Origin: Rhizophagus irregularis
Taxonomy: Eukaryota > Glomeromycota > Glomeromycetes > Glomerales > Glomeraceae
DNA length: 64,000 bases
Assembly (NCBI RefSeq): GCF_026210795.1
Contig: NC_089432.1
Location: 4,030,001-4,094,000, forward strand
Direction: 5' to 3'
Shown here: in pieces, positions 1,556-37,615 of the stretch
Numbering within the stretch: the stretch's first letter is position 1
How the letters are laid out: each line of letters begins with the position of its first letter
Notes under the pieces: model-generated
The model's database searches: none
Told to the model about the DNA's origin: nothing
Seen by the model: the letters and a program-made list of their open reading frames with translations, nothing else
Program-made: the position numbers and the translations under genes

Positions 1556-4500
1556 GAGAATAATAATAATAAAGAGAATAATAATAATAAAGAGAATAGT
1601 GAGAAGAAAGGTAAAAAGAAGAAGAAACGTTCTTCGAAGAAAAGTAAGACAAGAGCTGACTTCCCAGTTTCTGATGAAACTTCTACTACTAAAATTTCAC
1701 TTATTGGCCCTTCCTCATCTCATCATCAACTTGAACATGTCGTAAATGATCAAAGTTTGGAAGAAGCTAAATCCTTATTCACACCATATGAAGAAGTCGA
1801 AGAAAATATTGAAGAAGATGGTGAAGATGGTGAAAATGTTGATAGTGAATCATTCAAATTTACTCGAAAATTGAGAAGGCGTAGCAAGACAAGAGATAAG
1901 CTTCAAAAGGCCAAGGAACAATTTAGACAAAGTTACATGATAATAAAGAATCAATTAATAAAACAACCTTCATCAACTAGGAGAACTAAGAGTGAGAGTT
2001 ATATTGATCAAATGATTTCCAATCATCAAAAAGAAAAAAGAAGATTAAGCAGTGTATCTTTCAGTGAAATTCAAACCATTGAAGCACCAGAATGGCAAGA
2101 ATCTAATCCACAACCACCACAACCTACTCGTCGTACTTCAAATTCAAGTCGTTCTGTTAGTTTCTCCGATCGACCAATTTCTCCTGGTTCAACTGAATAT
2201 TCTCAAGATAGCACTGATTGCTCATCTCAACAACAAAATGTTATTGCTCTTACCCGTATGTTACATCAAATTCAAGCTGATATGGTTGTTAAAGAACAAC
2301 TCGTTTCACAATTGGAATGTGCTGAACAAGAATATATTAATATGAGAGCTCAATATGAACAAAAATTGGCTGATATGCAAGACGCTTTAATTACCTTACA
2401 ACAAGAAAGAAATGCTGCTATTAAACGTGCTCAAAATGCTAGTACTGGCGTTAGTACTCGTGATAAGAATTCAATCCTTGCCGAACTTAAAACTCGTTAT
2501 GAACACAAGATGAAACGTTTAATCCAAGAAATTGGTGAACTTCGTAGAAAATATAATGAAGCTACTCAATCTAATACCACATCAAGGGATCGAAATGAAA
2601 CAATACTCAAGAGTATGCGTGCTCAAATTGAACAACTAAAAAGTGAAAAGATGCAAATGATGAAGCGTATGAAGGATGAAGCTAAACGAGTCCGTGAAAT
2701 GACTGAACATAATCAACGTGAAATTCAAAATCTTCGTCGTAAAGGAAAATCTGCTCAAGAACAAAAGAAACGTTTTGAAAGAACTAGTGAAATGCAAAAA
2801 ATCATGCTTGAAAAGAGACAGAAAGAAGTTTTACAAACAAATAGTAAACTTAAATCAGTTATGGCCTTACTCAAACGAACCACTACTCCAAAGTCAATCA
2901 CCAAGGCTATCCGTAATCACAAACGACAATCAATATCTAATGATGATAACAGAAAGGAATCGAGACGATCCTCCGATGATTTTAGTCCTATCTATGATGA
3001 AGTATTTGCCAGTGGTTATGATAAGAAAAAACTTCTTAATGAAGCAATCTATAAATATATTAGTGGTCGTCAAACATTGACAATGATGGATGAATGGATC
3101 GTTAATAGAAATAATTTACAAGAAGAGAAGAATGAATTACTTGAAGAACGTGAAAAAATAATTACTAGTGAAGTTGGAAATGAGTTAGGAGGAGATGTTC
3201 AAGCATTAGATGATAAGATTGAGATGATCACCTCGGAAATTGCTTATATTAATGCTAAGATTCATTCTTTACAATCAAGTATTGCCGCCAAACAAGAAGA
3301 AAAATCTGCTGAAAATAGCAAAGAATCTGAAGATAAATCACGAAAGAATAGTATCAAGTCTAGTAAAATTGAAAAGAAACTTTCTTTCATCTTACCAGAA
3401 AATGCCACACCTAAAGCATCATATGACGTTGCTGTTCGCATTCTACGAAATTTGGATGAATTTGAAAGGTATACAATATTAGAATCCTTCTTTAAGGATA
3501 TTATTGATCTTCGAACTGGAGATTATTCTCGACAAATGACCTTAGAACAACAAGAAAAGATAATTATGGAATTAAGAAAAACTTTATTGGCCATGCGAAG
3601 AGCTGCAGTTCTTACAACAAGTGAATTCGAAAAGAAAAACAGAGAACTTGAAGAAGCTTTACGTCTCGGTGGAAGATCACTAAGTCCATCAACGGAAAAG
3701 AGAGAATTGCAGATGGATGATAATGAAAATAGTACTTCCAATGCCATTTCTTTATTTGATCATAAATTAGATCAAGCTTATGCAGAAGTCGAAGCTGAAA
3801 TATCAGGAACTTCTGGTCAAATGGGATCATTATCAAGATGCAATTCATTATCTGCAAGTTCAGTGAATACTGGTAAGAATAGAGCAAATTTTTCAAGACC
3901 GCCAATACCTCCCGGTTGGTTAAATCTTCAACCACGTGAAAAAGTACTCGAACAAACTAATGAAACGACGCCGGACGTTCCAACAAATCCAAGAAGAAAA
4001 GATTCTGGAAATAGTGAATCTAGTGGTGATAACAATAATAATGTAAAGAGAAGGAGTTTAAGTGGTCGAAGATTAAAGAGACCATCTGATGGTCCATCTA
4101 CACCATCTACACTATCTACATCATCAACACCAAAAGATGAGAATATTTCTCCTTTAGAACGTACAAGATCACTTAATAGTCAACCTTTAGAACGCACAAG
4201 ATCACTCAATAGTCAACCTTTAGAACGTACAAGGTCCATTGGTCAACCTTTGGAACGTACTAGATCCAGTGATCAACATTTAGAACGCGCCAGAGCTGGT
4301 GTTCAACTTTCAAGTTCACGACGAAGTTCGCTTTGTGATGGGTCAACAATTCTTGCATAGTCGACAAAGTTGTTCAACAAGCATGGGTTTCCACTTAGAA
4401 TTTGGCGATTGTCCACGTGATAGTGGATATTTTAGCAGCGGTGATAAGCGAAGATCACAAAGCAGTATGGCACGACGAGGTACCAAAGATATAACAGCAG

Positions 4501-4640
4501 CATATCATATGCGACAAAGTTCATATGGACGTAGTTCACCCGATAGCGATGATGCAGCAAGCGTAACAAGTACGACCAGTGAACGTGAAAAACGTGCATT
4601 AATGCGGTATTATTTAAATAGTTACGTTACGATTTGTTGA
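23..4640 (+). CDS. Kinesin heavy chain (kinesin-4/KIF4-like), 5' end outside window
   Basis: Microtubule motor; the ATP P-loop exon lies left of the window. The visible exon starts at 23 after an acceptor TTATTATTAG (an in-frame TGA at 4-6 excludes read-through). Introns are 282-355 (GTATGT..TTTAG) and 606-697 (GTAATG..ATAG); then one long exon follows. Motor motifs: SSRSH (switch I, 414-428), DLAGSER (switch II, 585-605, ending at the intron), [13 protein letters not shown], and neck [11 protein letters not shown], the wording typical of kinesin-4. The stalk has long coiled coils, a poly-Asn tract with KENNNN repeats, a Lys-rich patch, a conserved-looking helical block around 3400-3670, and a tail with repeats of LERTRS. 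The main frame stops at 4358-4360. A Ser/Arg-rich reading frame continues in another frame to 4640, so I extend the gene there, by an intron 4299-4398 or a frameshift. Motor identity is firm; the subfamily is inferred; the C-terminus is uncertain. Confidence 0.9.
1474..1590 (+). repeat. AAT microsatellite encoding poly-Asn
   Basis: Pure and near-pure AAT triplets inside the kinesin stalk, followed by AATAATAATAAAGAG units coding NNNNKE repeats. The repeat is in frame, so length changes alter only the number of Asn residues. It sits just before a Lys-rich segment ([13 protein letters not shown]). Confidence 0.95.
4299..4398 (+). other. Frame switch near kinesin C-terminus: putative weak intron or frameshift
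   Basis: Removing 4299-4398 (GTGTTC..CACTTAG, 100 nt) joins the frame ending LERARA to the frame reading [14 protein letters not shown] without a stop. The donor is poor compared with GTATGT/GTAATG elsewhere in this gene. Both frames look coding around 4310-4360, which would also fit a single-base indel, real or in the assembly. Confidence 0.45.
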
Positions 4641-4820
4641 TACCGTTACGGTATGGTTGTTTATTTACAGTTATGATCACTAATTTGCCGGTATGATAAT
4701 TCATTTACTAATCGTATCGTACCTGTTCTGTCCGTAATACTGTATATATTACTTCTACTAAAGTTACAGGTATGATACGAAATTACATATACAAAGGATC
4801 ATTCATACCTGTAATATCAT
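4625..4820. repeat. Word-iterated island (GGTATGA / TCATACC)
   Basis: Just after the kinesin stop, short variants of GGTATGAT and its complement recur (ACGGTATGG, CCGGTATGAT, CGTACCTG, AGGTATGATACG, CATACCTG). No coding signal is seen. It resembles other islands of self-complementary words in this window and may be a fold-back element. The remaining bases to 5056 are plain AT-rich sequence. Confidence 0.4.
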
Positions 4821-5056
4821 AAAATTTACACAAGCGTCCAACTGATAATTAAAGACGAAGCTGAAGTCACCCAACTAAAAGTAAGGATAAACAGTTTATA
4901 AAACGAAAAATAATTATAATTTATTACTTTCAAATAGTTTGAAATCTTGATATTTTTATATTTGTGATAAAGCAGTTAATTGAGATTTTTATTGTAATTT
5001 ACGAACTATATAATAAAATTGCCGAATTTACTTTATTTGCTGTATACAAATTTTGA

Positions 5057-6174
5057 TTGATATTATGCATTTATAATGATCAAGAATATAAAAAATTGGT
5101 GGAGATAAAGAAAAAAGCGAGAGGAATACTAAATGATAAAAAAATCATAGGAACGATAAATCATCAAATTGACATAGTAGAAGAAGCACTATTAGTATTT
5201 GAATTTGGAATAAAAAGATTGGCAATCGACTTTGGAATTTGTCAGTAATCGTATTAATTTTACTCAAAGACAATGTAACCAAAAAGATACGAGAGATAGA
5301 TCGTATCGAATAAAATTTACTTAAAGAATTACCGGCCTACGATACTCTACTTAAAAGAAACACGAATAAAATAGAAAGTGATTTATGTAAAAGATGCGAA
5401 AAGAACGAGAAAGAAAATTGGGAACATATTTGGCTATGCGAAGCGAACGAGTCTACGATCGATGAAATTACACAAGAATCAATATATAGATTCGAAAGAC
5501 AACTAGAAGATAAAAATCAACACGATGAAATTAAAATTTTAAGAAATTATAATTTTGAATATTAGAACAACCTTCGATAGTTCTGAGAGGAAAAAGCTGA
5601 ATATGGGAAATTTTAAGAGGAGTATATAATGACAACTTTAATAAATTAACGAATAAAAAAGAAGAAAAGGCCGTAATCAAAAATTTATGGAATTTCGTTT
5701 ACGATGAATTCAAAAAAAGAACCTGGATACCTAGATGTGATGAAATGAGCGCAAAGATGATATACAGAAGATAGATCTACGATAAAGGAAAAGCAGAACG
5801 GATGATGATTTAGCGTTAGATAAGGAAAAAGAAAACAAAAAACAGAAGAAAAATTAAAAAAAATAGAAAAAAATAAAATCAGCCAAAATATTAAAAGGTA
5901 ACGTTAAATAGATTAATAGGAACGATAACGGAAGGATCTCGTATTAGTAATAGATGGGATTTAACGATCAAAATGTATTAATTATTAGGTTTTTATTGTT
6001 ATTAGGTAATATTAGTGTAGTTATTTTTTTTTTTGTATATATGTTTTGAATACTTAGTTATAGGGATTAGATTTTCTAAGCTCTGGTTTTAAATAATTAT
6101 CTAATTTTTTATAAATTTAAATAATTAATAAAACGCGTTTCTATTTAAAAAAAAAAATTGATATTACGCATTTA
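5057..6174 (+). mobile_element. 5'-truncated, decayed non-LTR retrotransposon (LINE) with target duplication
   Basis: The copy is flanked by a 17-bp direct repeat TTGATATTA(T/C)GCATTTA at 5057-5073 and 6158-6174, with an A-run just before the right copy: a target-primed insertion. The body has broken frames. Around 5340-5500 it reads CKRCEKNEKENWEHIWLCE, a Cys/His zinc-finger-like segment of the kind found at the C-terminus of fungal LINE reverse transcriptases. Around 5670-5760 it reads LWNFVYDEFKKRTWIPRC. Several in-frame stops make it inactive. The RT core is absent, so it is a 5' truncation. Family recognition is from memory. Confidence 0.85.
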
Positions 6175-18581: not shown

Positions 18582-19761
18582 TTATACTATACAATCATCC
18601 AAACTTTCACTTTTTAGAATTTTATTTGATTTTTCATTTGTAAAATCTGAACATTCACTTTCTAAAATTTCATTTAATTTTTTACTGGTAAAATTAAACA
18701 AACGACTTGTATGATATGCTTGTGGATGAGATTCAGTCATAGTAGGTTTAATATATCCAATTGGCGCATTGATAAATTCCATAATGTTACTTTTTAACTC
18801 TTCACTAATATTTTTAATTTCCATTTCAGAAGGAAGATAAATCCATCTTTTAATTACATTTAAAACTTCTGATGTAGATGGTCTTTTTAATAGATCTCCA
18901 TCCCAACATTTTTTCATTAAATCTATATAGCATTGTGGAGTATTTTCAATAATTTCAGGACGTTCACCTTCACAAATACTTATACTAAGTTGAACATCAT
19001 ATGCTCTATCATTAAATGGTGAAATCCCAGATGTAAATTCCCACATAATCATAGAAAAACTATATATATCACTAGCTGGAGTATAAGGTTTACCTCTTAA
19101 AATTTCAGGTGCTATAAATGGCATAACACCATAAATTTCATCATCTTTAAAAAAAGATTTTACAGGTCTACTTAATCCTAAATCACTAATCCAAATTTCA
19201 TCCTTATTAATCAAAATATTACCATCATGAAAATCACAATGAATAAGATTTTGTTCATGCATTTTGTGAAGTCCAGCAATAATCATAAATAATTTATGCA
19301 ACTTTGATCTCCAATCATTTGTAATTATATTTGTTAAACATTTTCTTAAATTACCTTTATCTGCATAATCCATTACTACTGTATAATTTGAAGTTTTTGG
19401 ATTTTTTGTAAATCCATATAAATGAACAATTATTTTTGATCCTATACATTTATAATGATTTTTCCACTACAAATTAAATAAAAATTAAGTAAATAAATTA
19501 TACTAATTAAAGTTAAAAAGGCAAAGAAATAATATTAGTCATACTTCATCTAAAAATTCATTGAAATTTTCAGAGTCATTTAAATTGTTGAGACATTTGA
19601 GAACTACTTTCATATTTTTATCAGACCAAATAGCTTCATATATAGTACCAAATCCCCCTTTATCAAGATATTTAATATTTTTAAATTTATCATAAGGAAT
19701 CCACATCAATTCTTGAGTTTCTTTAAGTATAAATTGATCTAGTAATTCATTTCCACTATTT
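18582..19761 (-). CDS. Protein kinase (TKL-like), main coding exons
   Basis: Exons complement(18582..19466) and complement(19545..19761), intron of 78 nt (GTATGA..TTTGTAG). Reads NSGNELLDQF, then MWIPYDKFKNIKYL, glycine loop DKGGFGTIYEA, lysine in VVLKCL, HCDFHDGNILI (HRD changed to HCD), SDLGLSRP (DFG changed to DLG), PFIAPEIL, SDIYSFSMIMWE, CWDGDLLKRPS, and a C-terminal tail with two ILESE/ILKSE repeats. HCD and DLG variants are common, as I recall, in the expanded kinase families of Rhizophagus, so they need not mean inactivity. The exon at 19761 begins in phase 2 and has no ATG, so the start is further upstream; the best candidate is 24765-24786, beyond a 5-kb array of intron-like units. 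Confidence 0.9.
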
Positions 19762-19838: not shown

Positions 19839-22800
19839 ACTAAAATTTAAATACAAATTTAATATTTAGTAAAATTAAGTTAGTTTAATTAAATTGTAAT
19901 TACTATTATAATGAATATTACATAGAATATAATAATATTGAATAACTTACCATCTACATTACATAAGTATTATTAAATATTTTTTTTTTAAAATAAGAAT
20001 TTGATTAGTTTAAAACATAATAAAATCGAATAACTTGTAACTTACTTCCTAAAATATTTTTTTTTAAATAAAGAATTTAGTTAGTTTAAATTATAAGTAC
20101 ATAAAACTTAATAGAATTGAATAATTTATAACTTACTCCCTAAAAAAATTTTTTTTAAAAAAGAATTTAGTTAGTTAAATAATAGATTTATTAATAGGTA
20201 AATATCATATAAAATATAATAGAATTAAACAAATTATAACTTACTCCCTAGTAAATATTTTTTTAAATAAAAAATTTAGTTAGTTTAAAGTATAAGTAAA
20301 TATTACATAAAATATAAAAGAATTGAATAACTTACTAACTAAATTATATATTATTAAATATTTTTTTAAATAAAGAATTTATTAGATCAAATTGTCAGTA
20401 AATATTGAAATATAATAGGAATTGAATAGCTTATAAATTACTTCCTAAAATATTTTTTTTTAATAAGAATTTAGTTAGTTTAAATTATAAGTAATATCAC
20501 TTAAAATATAATAGAACTGAATAATTTATAACTTACTCCCTAAAATATTTTTTAAATAAAGAATTTAGAAAGTTTAAATTATAAGTAAATATTACTTAAA
20601 ATATAATAGAATTGACTGAATAACTTATAACTTACTCCCTAGAATATTTTATTTAATTAAAGAATTCAGTTAGTTTAAATTATAAGTAAATATCACTCAA
20701 AATATAATTGAATTGAATAACTTACCATCTATTACATATTATTAAATATTTTTTTTTAAACAAAGAATTTAGTTAGTTAATTATTAATTATTGTACTGTA
20801 GGTTAATGTCACTTAAAATATAATAAAAATCAAATAACTTACTATCTATATTATGTATTATTAAATATTTTTTTAAATAAAGAATTTAGTTTGTTTAAAT
20901 TATAAGTGAATATCATATAAAAATATAGTAGAATTGAATAACTTACTATCTATATTACATATTATTAAATATTTTTTTTAAATAAAGAATTTAGTTTGTT
21001 TAAATTATAAGTAAATATTACATAAAATATAATAGCTTGTAAACTTACAATCTAAATATTTTTTTAGATAAAGTATTTAGTTAGTTTAAATTATAAGTAA
21101 TATTATCACATATAATATAATATAATTATTATAATTGAATAACTTATATAACTTACTCTCTAAAATATTTTTTAAAATAAAGAATTTAGTTAGTTTAAAT
21201 TATAAGTAAATATCACAAAATATAGTAGAATTGTATAACTTACTAACTATATTACATATTATTAATATTTTTTTTGAATAAAAAATTTAATTATAAGTAA
21301 ATGTCATATAAAATATAAGAGAATTAAATACTTATAACTTACTTCCTAATATATTTTTTAAATAAAGAATTTAGTTAGTTTAAATTATAAGAAAATATCA
21401 CATAAAATATAATGGAATTGAATAACTTATCAGTTATAACTTACTTCCTAAAACATTTTTTTAAATAAAGAATTTGGTTAATTTAAAATTATAAGTAAAT
21501 ATCACTTAAAACATAATAGAATTGAATAACTTACCATCTAGTATATTACATATTGTTAAATATTTTTTTAAATAAAGAATTTAATTAGTTCAAATTATAA
21601 GTAAATATCACATAAATTGAACAACTTACCATCTATATTATTACATTTTATTAATATTTTTTTAAATTAATTTAAATAATTTATTTTACAAGCAAATATT
21701 ACATAAAATATGATAATAGAATTGAATAGCTTACCATCTATTACATATTATTAAATATTTTTTAAATAAAAATTTAGCTAGTTTAAATTAACTATCATAT
21801 AAAATATAATAGAATTGAATAACTTACTATCTATATTACATATTATTAAATATTTTTTTAAATAAAGAATTTGGTTAGTTTAAGCTATATAAGCAAGAAA
21901 TATAATAAAATTGAATAACTTATAACTTACAATCTAAATATTTTTTTAAATAAAGAAATTAGTTAGTTTAAATTGTAGGTAAATAATATCACATAAAATA
22001 CAATATAATTGAATAACTACAACTCACTCTCTAAAATATTTTTTAAAATAAAGAATTTAGTTATTATAAATTTAAGTAAATATAACATAAAATATAATAA
22101 AATTGGATCACTTACTAACTACATTACATATTATTAAATATATTTTTAAATAAAAGGATTGTTATTTTAAATTATACGTAAATATTATTGTAAAATATAA
22201 TGGAATCAAATAACTTATAGCTTACAATCTAAATATTTTTTAAATAAAGAATTTAGTTAGTTTAATTATAAGTAATAAATATCACATAAAATGTAATAGA
22301 ATTGAATAACTTATGGCTTACAATCTAAATATTTTTTTGAATAAAAGAATTTAGTTAGTTTAAATTATAAGTTAATATCACATATATAAAATATAATGAA
22401 ATTAAATAACTCACTATCTATATTACATATTATTAAATATTTTTTTTTAAAAAAAAGAATTTAATTAATTTAAATTATAAGTAAATAATAACACATAAAA
22501 TATAATGATACTGAATAACTTATAACTTACTCCCTAAAATATTTTTTTAAATAAAGAATTTAGTTAATTTAAATTATAAGTAAATATTACATATAATATA
22601 ATAATAGAGTTGAATAACTTGTAACTTACAATCTAAATATGTTTAAATAAAGAAGTTGGTTAGTTTAAATTAAATTATAAGTAAATAATATCACATAAAA
22701 TATAATAAAATTGAATAATTTACCATCTATATTACATATTTTTTAAATAAAGAATTTAGTTAGTTTAAATTATAAAGTAAATATTCCATAAGATATATAA

Positions 22801-24523
22801 TAGAATTGAATAACTTATAACTTACTCCCTAAAATATTTTTTTAAATAAAGAATTTGGTTAGTTTAATTTATGAGTAAATATCACATAAAAATAATATAA
22901 TTGAATAACTTATAACTTACTCCCTAAAATTTTTTTTTTAAGTAAAGAATTTAGTTAATTTAAATTATAAGTAAATGTTACATAAATATAATAGAATCGA
23001 ATAACTTACCGTCTATATTATATATTATTAAATGGCATGTTTTTAAATAAAGAATTTGGTTAATTTAAATTATAAGTAAATATCATCATAAAATATAATA
23101 TAATTGAATAACTTATAGCTTACAATCTAAATATTTTTTTAAATAAAGAATTTAGTATATTATATAAATATATAGTATAGTTGAATAACTTATAGCTTAC
23201 AATCTAAATATTTTTTGAAATAAGAATTTAGTTAGTTTAAATTATAAGTAAATATTACATAAATATAATAGAATCGAATAACTTAATAACTTACTAACTA
23301 TATAACATATTATTAAATATTTATTAAATAAAGAATTTAGTTAGTTTAAATTATAAGTAAATATCACAAAAAATATAATAGTATTGAATAACTTACTATC
23401 TAGTATAATATAAGTAAGGAATTTAATCAATTTAAATAATAAGATAATAAGTATAATAAGTAAATATCACATAAATGTAGTAGAATTGAATAACTTATAG
23501 CTTACTCCCTAAAATATTTTTTAAATAAGAATTTAGTTAGTTTAATTATAAGATGTCAGTCATGTCACATAAAATATGATAGAATTGAATAACTTACTAA
23601 CTAGTATATTACATATTATTAAATATTTTTTTTAGATAAAGAATTTAGTTAGTTTAAATTATAAGTAAGGGATCACCAATTTAAAAGTTCGTTTAACATG
23701 ATCCCCAATTTTGGCAAAAATCATGAAATAATAAACAGTAAAAAACATAGCGTCACATGACACTAAGACATTGCCATATGACAAAATCTCAGTTTCTTTC
23801 AACTTTTCCCAAATTTTTATTATAAATGTTCGATTTTTACTGTTGATTATTTCTCCTCCACCCCATCTTAAATTTATGATGTTAAACGAACTTTTAAATT
23901 GGTGAGCCCTAAATATCACACAAAAATATAATATAATTGAATAACTTACCATCTAGTATATTACATATTATTAAATAATTTTTTAAATGAATAATTTAGT
24001 TAGTTTAAGTATCACATAAAATATAACAGAATTTGAATAACTTACCAACTGTTATATTACATATTATAAATATTTTTTTTTTAAATAAAAATTTTAGAAA
24101 TAAAGAATTTAATAGCAGAATCGTATAGATTTATATAAAATATAATAACTTACACCCTATAGCGTTATTTAATTATTTAGTTATTAAATAATTTTAGGTA
24201 AAATAGTCAGTTAAGTATAAAAATTATATAAATACATGAATTTAATAACCTATAAACTTACAATCTAATTATTTAAATCAAGAGGTTAGTTAGTTTGAAT
24301 TATTAAAATATAAGAATTAATAACTAATAACTTACCAACTTAGATAGGTATATGATCAAATAATTTTTAAATAAAGAATTTAGTTAATTTGAATTACAGT
24401 AAGTAACATTTAATGCGCAATAAATATAACTTACAAACTAATAGTATTATTAGTTATTAAATATGTTTTTAATAAGTTATTAGTTAAAATGATTGAATTA
24501 AATAACTTATAACTTACAAGCTA
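19839..24523 (-). repeat. Tandem array of ~46 intron-like units with 3-nt spacers
   Basis: Period 74-117 bp, about 100 on average. On the minus strand each unit starts with a donor (mostly GTAAGTTATT), has TTTAAACTAACTAAATTC in most units (ACTAAC matches a fungal branch site), an A/T tract, and ends in TAG. I located 45 acceptor/donor junctions and in all the spacer is exactly 3 nt: GGA 8, ATT 8, ATG 7, TTA 5, ATA 5, GAA 4, AGA 2, TTG 2, and ACG, GGT, TTT, CTT once each. The junction nearest the coding exon (19839) has a 1-nt spacer, T. Two unit types differ in acceptor: ATATTTTAG (usually before GGA/GAA) and ATAATATGTAATATAG (before ATG/ATA/TTA). A MITE sits in one unit. Whether the spacers are used as microexons cannot be told from DNA. 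Confidence 0.9.
23669..23909. mobile_element. Harbinger-like MITE inside the intron array
   Basis: Inverted ends starting GGGATCACCAATTTAAAAG and GGGCTCACCAATTTAAAAG, matching for over 30 bp. TAA duplication at 23666-23668 and 23910-23912. Removing element plus one TAA restores a normal array unit (..ATAAGTAAATATCACA..). It is 241 bp with no coding capacity. The splice-like junctions on either side are intact. Confidence 0.85.
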
Positions 24524-24764
24524 TAAGCAATTTAAATGAATATAATAGTTGGTTATAATGAATTAATTTACATTTTCAAGTCAAATTATTCAAAACCATT
24601 TTTTTATTTATAAATACTTTAATAGTTTAAAATTATTAAATTATTTATATTTACCTTTAGAATCATTAATAGTATTTAAAACTAGTATTATTATATTGTA
24701 AATTTATTAGGATAATTCTAATTTGTGTTAAACTGAATTCATGTTCATGCTACATGCTTTTTAC

Positions 24765-24786
24765 CTTCATCATTACTATCAGCCAT
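24765..24786 (-). CDS. Putative 22-nt first exon of the 18582 kinase gene
   Basis: AAAGAAATGGCTGATAG context, then MADSNDE plus one base, followed by a donor GTAAAA at 24764. Arithmetic: 22 + 1 (T at 19839) + 217 + 885 = 1125 nt, divisible by 3; without the 1-nt exon it is 1124 and fails. Any number of the 3-nt spacers keeps the frame, and reading all 45 in order gives no stop. The upstream sequence is an A/T-rich purine tract. The assignment is inferred; another start cannot be excluded. Confidence 0.5.
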
Positions 24787-35394: not shown

Positions 35395-35790
35395 GGTTGA
35401 TGAAAACAGAAATGGGATGATGTAAAACAAAATGAAACAATACAAAGTGAATTGAGATGATGAAAAATAATGTGGAATGTTGCAAAACGAAATGGAGTGA
35501 TGAAAAACGATATGGAGCAATATGGAGTGATGAAAACTGATATGAAACGATATGAAGCGATATAGAGTGATGAAAACAATATGAAGTGATATAGAGTGAT
35601 GAAAAACGATATGGAGCGATATGGAGCGATATGGAGTAATGAAAAATGATATGGAGCGATATGGAGTGATGAAAACCAATATGGAACGATATGAAGCGAT
35701 ATGGCGTGATGAAAAACAATATGAAGCAATATAGAGTGATGAAAAACGATATGGAGCGATATGGAGTGATGAAAAATGATATGGAGCAAT
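35395..35790. repeat. Minisatellite, left part
   Basis: Units built from GATATGGAGC/T, GATATGAAGC and GATGAAAAAC-like ten-mers, giving a 20-40 bp higher-order pattern. Because ten-mers combine into multiples of 30, several long open frames occur on the minus strand; they are artefacts of the repeat. Continues after the element at 37097. Confidence 0.95.
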
Positions 35791-37096
35791 AGGACCCCAG
35801 AAAATGCTTATATATGTAAGGTACCAAGGTGCTTAGCCAACATAGAAAAGTTTTATGATGTAAGAATTTTATAATGCTTAATTTTAAGAAAATTTTATAC
35901 TATGTAAGATAATTAAATTGCATATTTTTGGTATTATTTTAAAATACTAAGAGTTTTTAGTTGCTTATTTTTCATATTTATATAACTTTTTAAAATATTA
36001 TATATTGAATTTATAATTAATTTTTATTTTATTTTCACTAACAGTGAGTGTTAATTTTGTACTACATTTCACAATTTTATATAAATACATAAACAAAAAT
36101 TTTTTTTGATAAAATTTCATTTTTTTTTTTCAATGTTTTATTAATTCTGTCAATAGTATCTTTTTAATTTTTATTAAACTCAGTGTATTATTTTTAATAT
36201 AAAATTACTATATTATACATGTTTATTTTGTTAAATAAAATTACTATAAATATGTTTTACTTTAAAATATAATTTCACTACTCACCACTTTGATTATATT
36301 AAATTATCTTTTATGCTTAAGTAAGTTTGTTCAGCAAGTTAAATCTACTTGTATTTTAATTTTCATAAGGCTAAGTATGATATTTATATAGAAAAGCATA
36401 TTTTTTTTAACGGTAATAACTTTTAAATTTTTCACTTTTTCGTTTATAACTTCAGAGCGTAATTACACCACTTCAGTCAAATGAAATCGACTTTCTAAAT
36501 TAATTGAAAGTTGTTCAGCAAGGTCGAAACTACTTATATATTAATTTTCATGAGTGTGGGTACAATACCTATGGTGAAAATGCATTTTTCATAACGGTAC
36601 TACCTTCCGAATTTTTCATTTCTCCGTTCACAACTTTAGAGCGTAATTACACCTCTTTGGTCAAATAAAATCGACTTTCTAAATTAATTGAATATTGTTC
36701 AGCAAGGTCGAAACTACCTACATATTAATGTTTATGGGTGTAAGTATAATACTTATGGAGAAATTTACATTTTTTGTAATAGTATTAATTTCGAATTTTT
36801 CTTTTACTGTTTATTAACTTTATTAATTGAATATTGTTAATCTACTTGTATATTATGTTTAGTTTAGCTTCACAACATATTTAAAATTGGATTTAATAAA
36901 ATATATTAATTAATAAATATATTTTATAAATTATATATGTTATAATAAAAATTTAATTAGGTTATTGCTTATTTTTATATAATTTTTAAGGTTAGATATC
37001 AACAATTCTTAGCGATCATAGTAAAAACCTATGCTTAGAGCTACTAATAAAAAATATTTTTGGGACCTTACCTATATAAGTATTTTCCGGGGTCCT
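35791..37096. mobile_element. 1.3-kb inverted-repeat element with 8-bp target duplication, inside the minisatellite
   Basis: Ends AGGACCCCAGAAAATGC and the inverse AGGACCCCGGAAAATAC match over about 35 bp. Direct repeat GGAGCAAT lies immediately outside (35783-35790 and 37097-37104), and removing the element restores a normal satellite unit. An 8-bp duplication fits hAT-like or P-like elements. The interior holds 3-4 tandem units of about 184 bp (anchor TTGTTCAGCAAG near 36328, 36511, 36695) and no transposase frame. Confidence 0.8.
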
Positions 37097-37615
37097 GGAG
37101 CAATATGGAGTGATGAAAAATGATATGGAGCAATATGGAGTGATGAAAACTGATATGAAGCAATATGGAGTGATGAAAACCGATATGAAGCGATATGGAG
37201 TGATGAAAACCAATATGGAACGATATGAAGCGATATGGAGTGATATGGAGTGATGAAAAGCGATATGGAGCAATATGGAGTGATGAAAACTGATATGAAG
37301 TGATATGGAGTGATGAAAACTGATATGAAGCGATATGGAGTGATATAGAGTGATGAAAACTGATATGAAATGATATGAAGCGATATGGAGTGATGAAAAA
37401 TGATATGAAGCGGTATTGAGTGATGAAAACTGATATGAAACGATATGAAGCAATATAGAGTGATGAAAAATGATATTGAGCGATATGGAGTGATGAAAAA
37501 TGATATGGAGCAATATGGAATGATATGGAGCGATATAGAGTGATGAAAAGCGATATGGAGTAATGAAAAATGATATGAAGTGATATGGAGTGATGAAAAA
37601 TGTTATAGGAGCGAA
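37097..37615. repeat. Minisatellite, right part
   Basis: Same GATATGGAG / GATGAAAA units as 35395-35790 in the same orientation, ending near 37600. Long minus-strand open frames here (reading HHSISLHI-like repeats) are by-products of the repeat. Confidence 0.95.

Follow-up and report, generated by a model that had tools for sequence, protein, structure and literature searches.

A putative run of one-codon exons and a single-nucleotide exon ahead of a protein kinase domain in Rhizophagus irregularis

The locus and its array of short units

The 64,000-nucleotide stretch of Rhizophagus irregularis DNA analyzed here (contig NC_089432.1, positions 4,030,001 to 4,094,000; referred to below as the window) carries on its minus strand a gene that very probably includes a coding region made of one-codon exons, retained in order ahead of a protein kinase domain. 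The predicted first exon (24765..24786, 22 nt, ATGGCTGATAGTAATGATGAAG) encodes MADSNDE and leaves one nucleotide over, setting phase 1, and a second exon of 27 nt (24655..24681) encodes VLNTINDSK and runs from phase 1 to phase 1. Next comes an array of 45 exons of 3 nt (19951..24520), each with an intron on both sides, whose phase-1 reading, AFFDWFDVRNINYYGRNDWNNYFKNYNDDGRIKNYNNGRRIRRRN, contains no stops. The array is followed by a putative single-nucleotide exon, the T at 19839, which has the acceptor TTTTAG and the donor GTAAGT and would carry the reading from phase 1 to phase 2. The first kinase exon (19545..19761, its end read by hand) begins A AAT AGT GGA..., takes 2 nt from upstream and encodes GGFGTIYEA. 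The second (18582..19466, read by hand) encodes the HCDFHDGNIL, DLGLSR and APE motifs and ends at the stop codon TAA. The joined protein matches the kinase family PF07714 in Pfam (E 5e-40), and hand reading finds in VVLK, HCD and DLG the lysine, the catalytic aspartate and the metal-binding aspartate.

The original prediction, made from the letters of this stretch, had described about 46 intron-like units with an invariant 3-nt spacer between each acceptor and the next donor. Between 24522 and 19955 of the minus strand there are indeed 45 junctions of the form AG-NNN-GT(A/G)A, spaced at 74-117 bp with a single 352-bp gap due to an insertion, as had been stated. In 300 samples drawn from a first-order Markov model of this stretch, such junctions averaged 1.24 and never exceeded 5. 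Spacers of any other length from 0 to 12 nt gave 0-2 matches per length within the array. A match at 22116, which overlaps a true junction, was left out of the count. The invariance of the spacer did not survive in full; 45 junctions have 3 nt and the last one (acceptor 19841-19840) has 1 nt, the T at 19839, followed by GTAAGT. This single-nucleotide exon, the short second exon (24681-24655) and the gene family described below had not been part of the prediction.

The first bases of the 3-nt exons, in the order of the minus strand, are 24520 (CTT), 24437, 24338, 24264, 24156, 24048, 23952, 23600, 23508, 23399, 23297, 23203, 23126, 23012 and 22923 for exons 1-15; 22828, 22726, 22632, 22533, 22417, 22324, 22228, 22118, 22030, 21933, 21830, 21737, 21632, 21537 and 21447 for exons 16-30; and 21345, 21246, 21159, 21051, 20949, 20845, 20728, 20638, 20539, 20444, 20338, 20247, 20139, 20048 and 19953 (ATG, to 19951) for exons 31-45.

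Similar junctions are numerous in the genome. Exact TAG-NNN-GTAAGTTAT sites number 3,772 when the spacer is 3 nt (62 in the backward control), 40 when it is 4 nt (control 110) and 35 when it is 2 nt (control 55), and a two-unit pattern matches exactly at 537 places in the 146.7-Mb assembly, its backward control at none. We analyzed 34 arrays, with loci designated L011 and so on. The first set comprises 20, namely that of the window and 19 others chosen from DNA and pattern searches; the second consists of 14 kinase loci, drawn from at least 150 kinase-exon matches and chosen as not already among the fetched arrays. A parse that favors no spacer length assigned 3 nt to 841/883 chain members in the first set, with 0 nt in 6/883, and to 350/372 in the second. 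The automatic parse of all 34 arrays gave 1,256 exons, of which 1,206 have 3 nt, 32 have 1 nt, 5 have 6 nt (two in L011 and one each in L029, L039 and L040) and 13 have other lengths, 6 of these last being false (L022, L011). Among non-terminal exons, 12/1,224 have a length that is not a multiple of 3, and 5 of these 12 are false, again in L022 and L011. The spacing of 8 other motif pairs inside the introns, taken as a control, was off-mode in 2.7-37% of cases; since the lowest of these values are not far from the exon figure, spacing is not the sole basis of the argument. Inside the L015, L018 and L012 arrays there are GC-AG introns (TTG GCAAGT, ATT GCAAGT) that keep the 3-nt register.

Among units separated by gaps of at most 140 nt, the array introns are 63-134 nt long with a mean of 95, and their lengths modulo 3 divide into 359, 353 and 363, which bears out the earlier description of unit bodies that vary by indels. 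In the 1,075 introns of the 34 arrays, CTAAC occurs in 652 and CT[AG]A[CT] in 895, with the chance level of these branch-like motifs in AT-rich sequence not assessed; where a CTAAC-like site is present, it lies at a median of 41 nt from the intron end. The G+C content is 39% for exon bases and 11.7% for introns, and retention of an intron would introduce an in-frame stop in 1,069/1,075 cases. The long gap in the window array holds an inverted-repeat insertion (23669..23909, read by hand) resembling a miniature inverted-repeat transposable element. It lies within one intron and leaves intact the adjoining exons ATG and TTA and their join, GTT. Array introns of L013 (two introns), L023 and L041 also contain insertions, with the adjoining 3-nt exons undisturbed, and at least some of the insertions, counting that of the window, are hairpin elements.

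Stop codons and the order of the exons

In the phase supplied by exon 1, phase 1, each codon is composed of the last base of one 3-nt exon and the first two of the next. Pooled over the 34 arrays, the consecutive joins read in this way contain no stops in 1,075. Joins made at greater distances do contain them, with 28/974 at lag 2, 31/885 at lag 3 and 22/802 at lag 4 (Fisher p 7e-10, 1e-11 and 6e-9), and so do neighbors joined in reverse (38/1,075). For the first 20 arrays the counts are 0/760 for consecutive joins, 22/690 at lag 2, 24/624 at lag 3 and 32/760 for reversed neighbors. When the order of exons was shuffled within these same arrays, the mean number of stops was 24.6 and the minimum 9 in 2,000 shuffles. 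The 14 later arrays, which taken alone are modest evidence, gave 0/315 for consecutive joins, 6/284 at lag 2 (p 0.011), 7/261 at lag 3 and 6/315 in reverse (p 0.03). Reading in phase 2 produced stops in 121/760 joins of the first set and 35/315 of the second. A first parse by regular expression, with 5 phase-1 and 28 phase-0 stops, was dropped because of overlapping false junctions (for example the TAA in AGTAAGTAAGT) and missed units, and was replaced by the parse that favors no spacer length.

Stops are absent in consecutive order only, which argues that selection sees these exons joined in order and translated. Further, a transcript that skipped one exon would not be stop-free, and wholesale optional inclusion is therefore unlikely as the main use of the array.

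Frame, kinase genes and the variation of units

Inspection of the flanking exons extends this picture to the other loci. An ATG exon that leaves 1 nt was found upstream of 19/20 arrays of the first set (14 by script, 5 by eye), and for the remaining one, L027, the start lies outside the stretch examined. The peptides of these first exons (MADSNDE, MALSNDK and similar) show no hydrophobic stretch by eye. Short exons of the kind found at 24655..24681 were detected by script in 10/20 loci of the first set; these 12 exons are 24-123 nt long and 12/12 are multiples of 3. A kinase lies downstream of 33/34 arrays, and a 1-nt exon stands at the array end in 33/33 of these (18 in the first set, 14 in the second, plus L021, in which its donor is GTAAAT). 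One form of the 1-nt-exon motif has 82 exact copies genome-wide and none in the backward control. In the second set, picked without reference to arrays, 14/14 kinase paralogs have an array; because the kinase query was taken from array-bearing genes, this does not show an array in every kinase of the genome.

The remaining array, L014 (G000:C3:1572500-1579500, array at about 2446-5143), has 31 one-codon exons and a different intron subtype, lacks a 1-nt exon and, by eye, belongs to a non-kinase gene whose downstream coding sequence has KWHISISSDGKYF. Its exon 1, ATGGATGAAATTG, leaves 1 nt, and the next coding exon takes up that phase (by eye), so that no shift is needed. A Pfam search with a 30-residue piece of this gene gave no match. 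A further array, at G000:C2:19526-23448, has no kinase near it among the matches listed, and other host genes may exist.

The 1-nt exon is supported by the reading frame. The usual kinase acceptor requires 2 nt in 32/32 loci with the motif GG(F/Y/L)G, being the first listed acceptor in 31 and the third in L029; L017 is absent from this count because its glycine motif is altered to GRFG, and the kinase there is shown by a kinase-exon match. In the window, joining exon 1 directly to the kinase at this acceptor leads to a stop within 15 codons, and the same stop is reached if the 45 codons are included without the single base. Once the 1-nt exon is included, the reading continues without a stop across the first kinase exon, whether or not the 45 codons are present. 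Since these add a multiple of 3, the frame is neutral about them; the 1-nt exon alone restores it, and the frame thus supports that exon and not the 45 codons. The array peptides are rich in R, N, D, W, F and Y, and 16/20 arrays of the first set have [DNK]-W-[FYW] within the first 8 residues. In the joined reading, a predicted tryptic peptide, NVNSGNELLDQFILK, extends from the final 3-nt exon across the single base into the kinase exon.

Comparison of units shows that introns recur with different codons beside them. There are 60 groups of identical introns with 203 members, and 11 groups extend across more than one locus. Between loci, identical introns share the left codon in 48/310 pairs and the right codon in 47/310 (6.9% at random), and among pairs with a similar next intron as well, the intervening codon differs in 119/144; the 310 pairs stem from only 11 groups, so this is a strong pattern and not a counted rate. 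Within loci the left codon is shared in 122/261 pairs and the right in 178/261. For pairs whose flanking introns together are 1-2 edits apart (286 pairs, 0.8%), the exon bases differ at 47% of sites. Pairs with both flanking introns identical agree in their codon in 40/61 cases, and 17/40 clusters contain more than one codon, for which reasons we attach no rate or p-value to exon versus intron divergence. In L025, four exons with flanking introns identical over 202 nt read CTC, GGT, TTC and GGT, and one 101-nt intron is unchanged on three contigs (L015, L022, L025) with differing codons. The variability of the three exon bases is 1.78, 1.34 and 1.99 bits; the highest of 56 flanking sites reaches 1.66. 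Neighboring exons are identical in 156/1,075 cases (0.145) at lag 1, compared with 0.140 at lag 2 and 0.122 at random, and a 3-bp target-site duplication as the origin of the spacer is weak, since neighbor identity is hardly above random.

Elsewhere in the window, at 35488-35791 and 37096-37614, there are degenerate 10-bp repeats of the GATATGGAGT / GATGAAAAAC type that are organized into longer periods of 30-140 bp.

Splicing model, alternatives and known systems

The arrangement suggests a model for the expression of these genes. A pre-mRNA of about 6.2 kb would contain 45 three-nucleotide exons between introns of about 95 nt, then the one-nucleotide exon and then the kinase exons. The array introns, with a GTAAGTTAT-like donor, a CTAAC-like branch site and an AG acceptor, would most likely be removed successively: excision of intron n would join NNN to the growing exon and place a new GTAAGT donor 3 nt farther downstream, which would spare the machinery from having to recognize any tiny exon from both ends at once. 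Short fungal introns are recognized across the intron. Such a mechanism would amount to a ratchet, presumably moving 5' to 3', that keeps one codon per step, and the terminal exon would then shift phase 1 to phase 2. The predicted product has a variable segment of about 10-70 residues between a short N-terminus and the kinase. This segment may evolve by duplication and exchange of units of codon plus intron, and our guess is that it has a role in recognition or regulation and that its diversity between paralogs is maintained.

Several observations weigh against a translated array. Splicing and translation are inferred here from selection and not from RNA. Phase 0, in which the spacer is itself a codon, is also almost stop-free (2/838 and 2/350 spacers), and it is therefore the order test, and not the rarity of stops, that picks out phase 1. 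Exon pairs are not all independent; when each distinct pair is taken once per locus, the counts become 0/547 versus 20/524 at lag 2. Joins over gaps of more than 140 nt were excluded from the counts; there were 58 of them in the first set, with 3 stops (L015, L018, L027), and 21 in the second, with none. In L015 and L018 the gap contains a unit with a GC donor (TTG GCAAGT), and in L027 one that has lost its donor and whose direct join is a stop. Donors are mutated in L020 and L034, and mutated or lost donors occur elsewhere too. The fully automatic parse is stop-free in 28/34 arrays and leaves stops in 6 (L015, L020, L022, L027, L034, L040), those of L022 arising through false exons at the array start; L011 and L036 are counted as stop-free even though they are read through a shifted frame. 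Odd spacers occur in L015 (4 nt, twice) and in L036 (2, 2 and 4 nt; G000:C14:1923200-1926700), where the units are either skipped or belong to decaying genes, and some genes with irregular arrays may be in decay. As for the frame, it does not by itself demand the 45 codons, exon 1 plus the 1-nt exon plus the kinase being open as well, and in 24/32 loci, window included (CTAG|ATCAAT), a later AG within the kinase exon is in frame with exon 1 directly. Use of that AG would cost the conserved SGN stretch, and 8/32 loci have none. We dropped the frame as a means of excluding removal of the whole stretch as one intron, because of these later AGs and because the 1-nt exon alone is sufficient.

The original prediction had left three readings side by side. 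Real 3-nt microexons are the one that the data favor, given the absence of stops in consecutive joins against about 3% at other lags, the enrichment of 3-nt spacers only across the genome and the constancy of the 1-nt exon. Recursive removal without retained codons, in which the AG-NNN-GT sites would merely assist the ratchet-like excision of one 5-kb intron and no codon would enter the mRNA, draws on the fact that every junction has a donor close behind an acceptor, as at ratchet sites, and on the later in-frame AGs of the kinase exon. It is very improbable, however, because exons 1 and 2 are out of frame with the kinase at the usual acceptor and because it offers no reason for stops to be missing from consecutive joins only, nor for the 3-nt spacer. 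At a ratchet site the acceptor abuts the regenerated donor and nothing is retained; here, spacers of 0 nt are rare, and the stop test points to retained codons. Still harder to credit is an untranslated satellite, born from an intron tandemly duplicated inside a larger one, with splice motifs kept by recent descent or, as originally worded, by selection. The units do constitute a family of repeats, and identical copies occur both inside single loci and at different loci, but the exon bases of the units are highly variable while the number of those bases stays fixed, the 1-nt exon is kept in all kinase arrays, and again nothing in this reading accounts for an absence of stops that depends on order. 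The idea that each codon is included or skipped at will is unlikely in our judgment, on different grounds. Massive alternative splicing of this kind has been proposed for schistosome micro-exon genes, any 3-nt exon here could be skipped without a frameshift, and a unit that has lost its donor must be either dead or left out by splicing. Yet skipping one or two exons gives stops at about the unselected rate (the lag-2 and lag-3 counts above), and the isoform seen by selection is therefore the full, in-order one, although rare or tolerated skipping may occur.

With respect to origin, either units have been exchanged and homogenized while selection kept the codons diverse, or introns have been copied without their codons. 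Introners are near-identical introns found at many places in a genome, as single copies in many unrelated genes. The array introns resemble them in being near-identical at multiple loci and differ in forming tandem units with a 3-nt exon between. That mobile, introner-like introns were inserted without codons fits the low sharing of codons between loci and the differing codons between like introns. We consider it rather unlikely, since codons are shared much more within loci, including the 40/61 pairs with both introns identical, since random insertion would yield exons of many lengths, and since the identity of neighbors (156/1,075 against 12.2% at random) is unlike that expected of recent 3-bp target duplications. 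Exchange of codon-plus-intron units may instead generate diversity, a proposal that we put forward tentatively: the homogenized introns would act as recombination arms, and single codons would be duplicated, lost and swapped between units and across scores of paralogous kinase genes. The outcome would be a hypervariable segment, recognition-like in character, that splicing assembles by joining up to about 70 one-codon exons and the 1-nt exon in order.

If RNA confirms the one-codon exons, these genes would be an extreme test case for whether and how splicing copes with tens of 3-nt exons in succession, plus one of 1 nt, that must be joined in order. Thousands of exons likely to be missed by ordinary gene finders would come with them, 3,772 by exact sites or about 6,500 if the match rate of 685/1,188 holds, a rate that comes from the arrays examined, which are not a random sample. 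The number of genes would be at least about 80, judging by the 82 exact 1-nt motifs, and about 135 by the same scaling. The genes would also present a protein segment whose evolution proceeds in units of exactly one codon, carried by a tandem repeat in which codons and introns differ greatly in their rate of change.

Schistosome micro-exon genes have exons of 6-81 bp according to the text (3-81 in the abstract), the vast majority of 15 bp; their introns range from 100 to nearly 5,000 bp, and their products are secreted (PMC10526429). The arrays share with them consecutive short exons that are mostly multiples of three, a gene family and a variable protein; they differ in having exons of 3 nt and one of 1 nt in place of mostly 15-bp ones, introns of about 95 nt in place of long ones, and a kinase downstream. 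An obvious signal peptide is not seen by eye in the predicted first exons. Aphid bicycle genes have many small internal exons, almost all in phase 2, about 17 exons on average, and a relative with more than 100 microexons (PMC9168663). They are likewise a rapidly evolving family with many unusually small internal exons of one phase; here that phase is 1, each exon is one codon and the unit is a tandem repeat. Single-nucleotide exons are known from Arabidopsis (PMC4674806) and from CYP621A of Fusarium (PMC12940212), the latter also fungal and resting on a phase argument with reads in support. In both, as here, a single base is needed for the frame. Those cases concern one gene, or a gene and its orthologs, whereas the present exon stands behind an array in 33/33 kinase loci, has 82 exact motif copies and is predicted from sequence. 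The 3-bp micro-exon of Drosophila homothorax (PMC7392893) is also a spliced 3-nt exon, a single one that is alternatively used; at the level of sequence, the putative 3-nt exons described here have acceptor and donor sites and are free of stops when joined in consecutive order. Recursive splicing exons (PMC6224609) and stwintrons (PMC9024468) likewise proceed by serial splicing, each step creating or uncovering the donor used next, and a fungus carries sister stwintrons that are similar to one another and repeated (PMC9024468); the accounts consulted describe no retained codon array. In a stwintron a splice element, be it donor, branch site or acceptor, is itself interrupted by another intron, whereas in the parsed units each acceptor and donor is intact, with 3 nt separating them. 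The literature search, which left subscription papers mostly outside and so does not show absence from print, gave among the papers listed no account of one-codon exon arrays or of microexons in this fungus. With 1,206/1,256 exons of 3 nt, phase 1 supplied by exon 1 and the outcome of the stop test, the arrays are runs of consecutive symmetric microexons in one phase, as in microexon-rich genes. None of the systems compared, in the parts of the accounts consulted, has one-codon exons in long arrays, and we therefore regard the genes described here as a new, extreme variant of the microexon gene.

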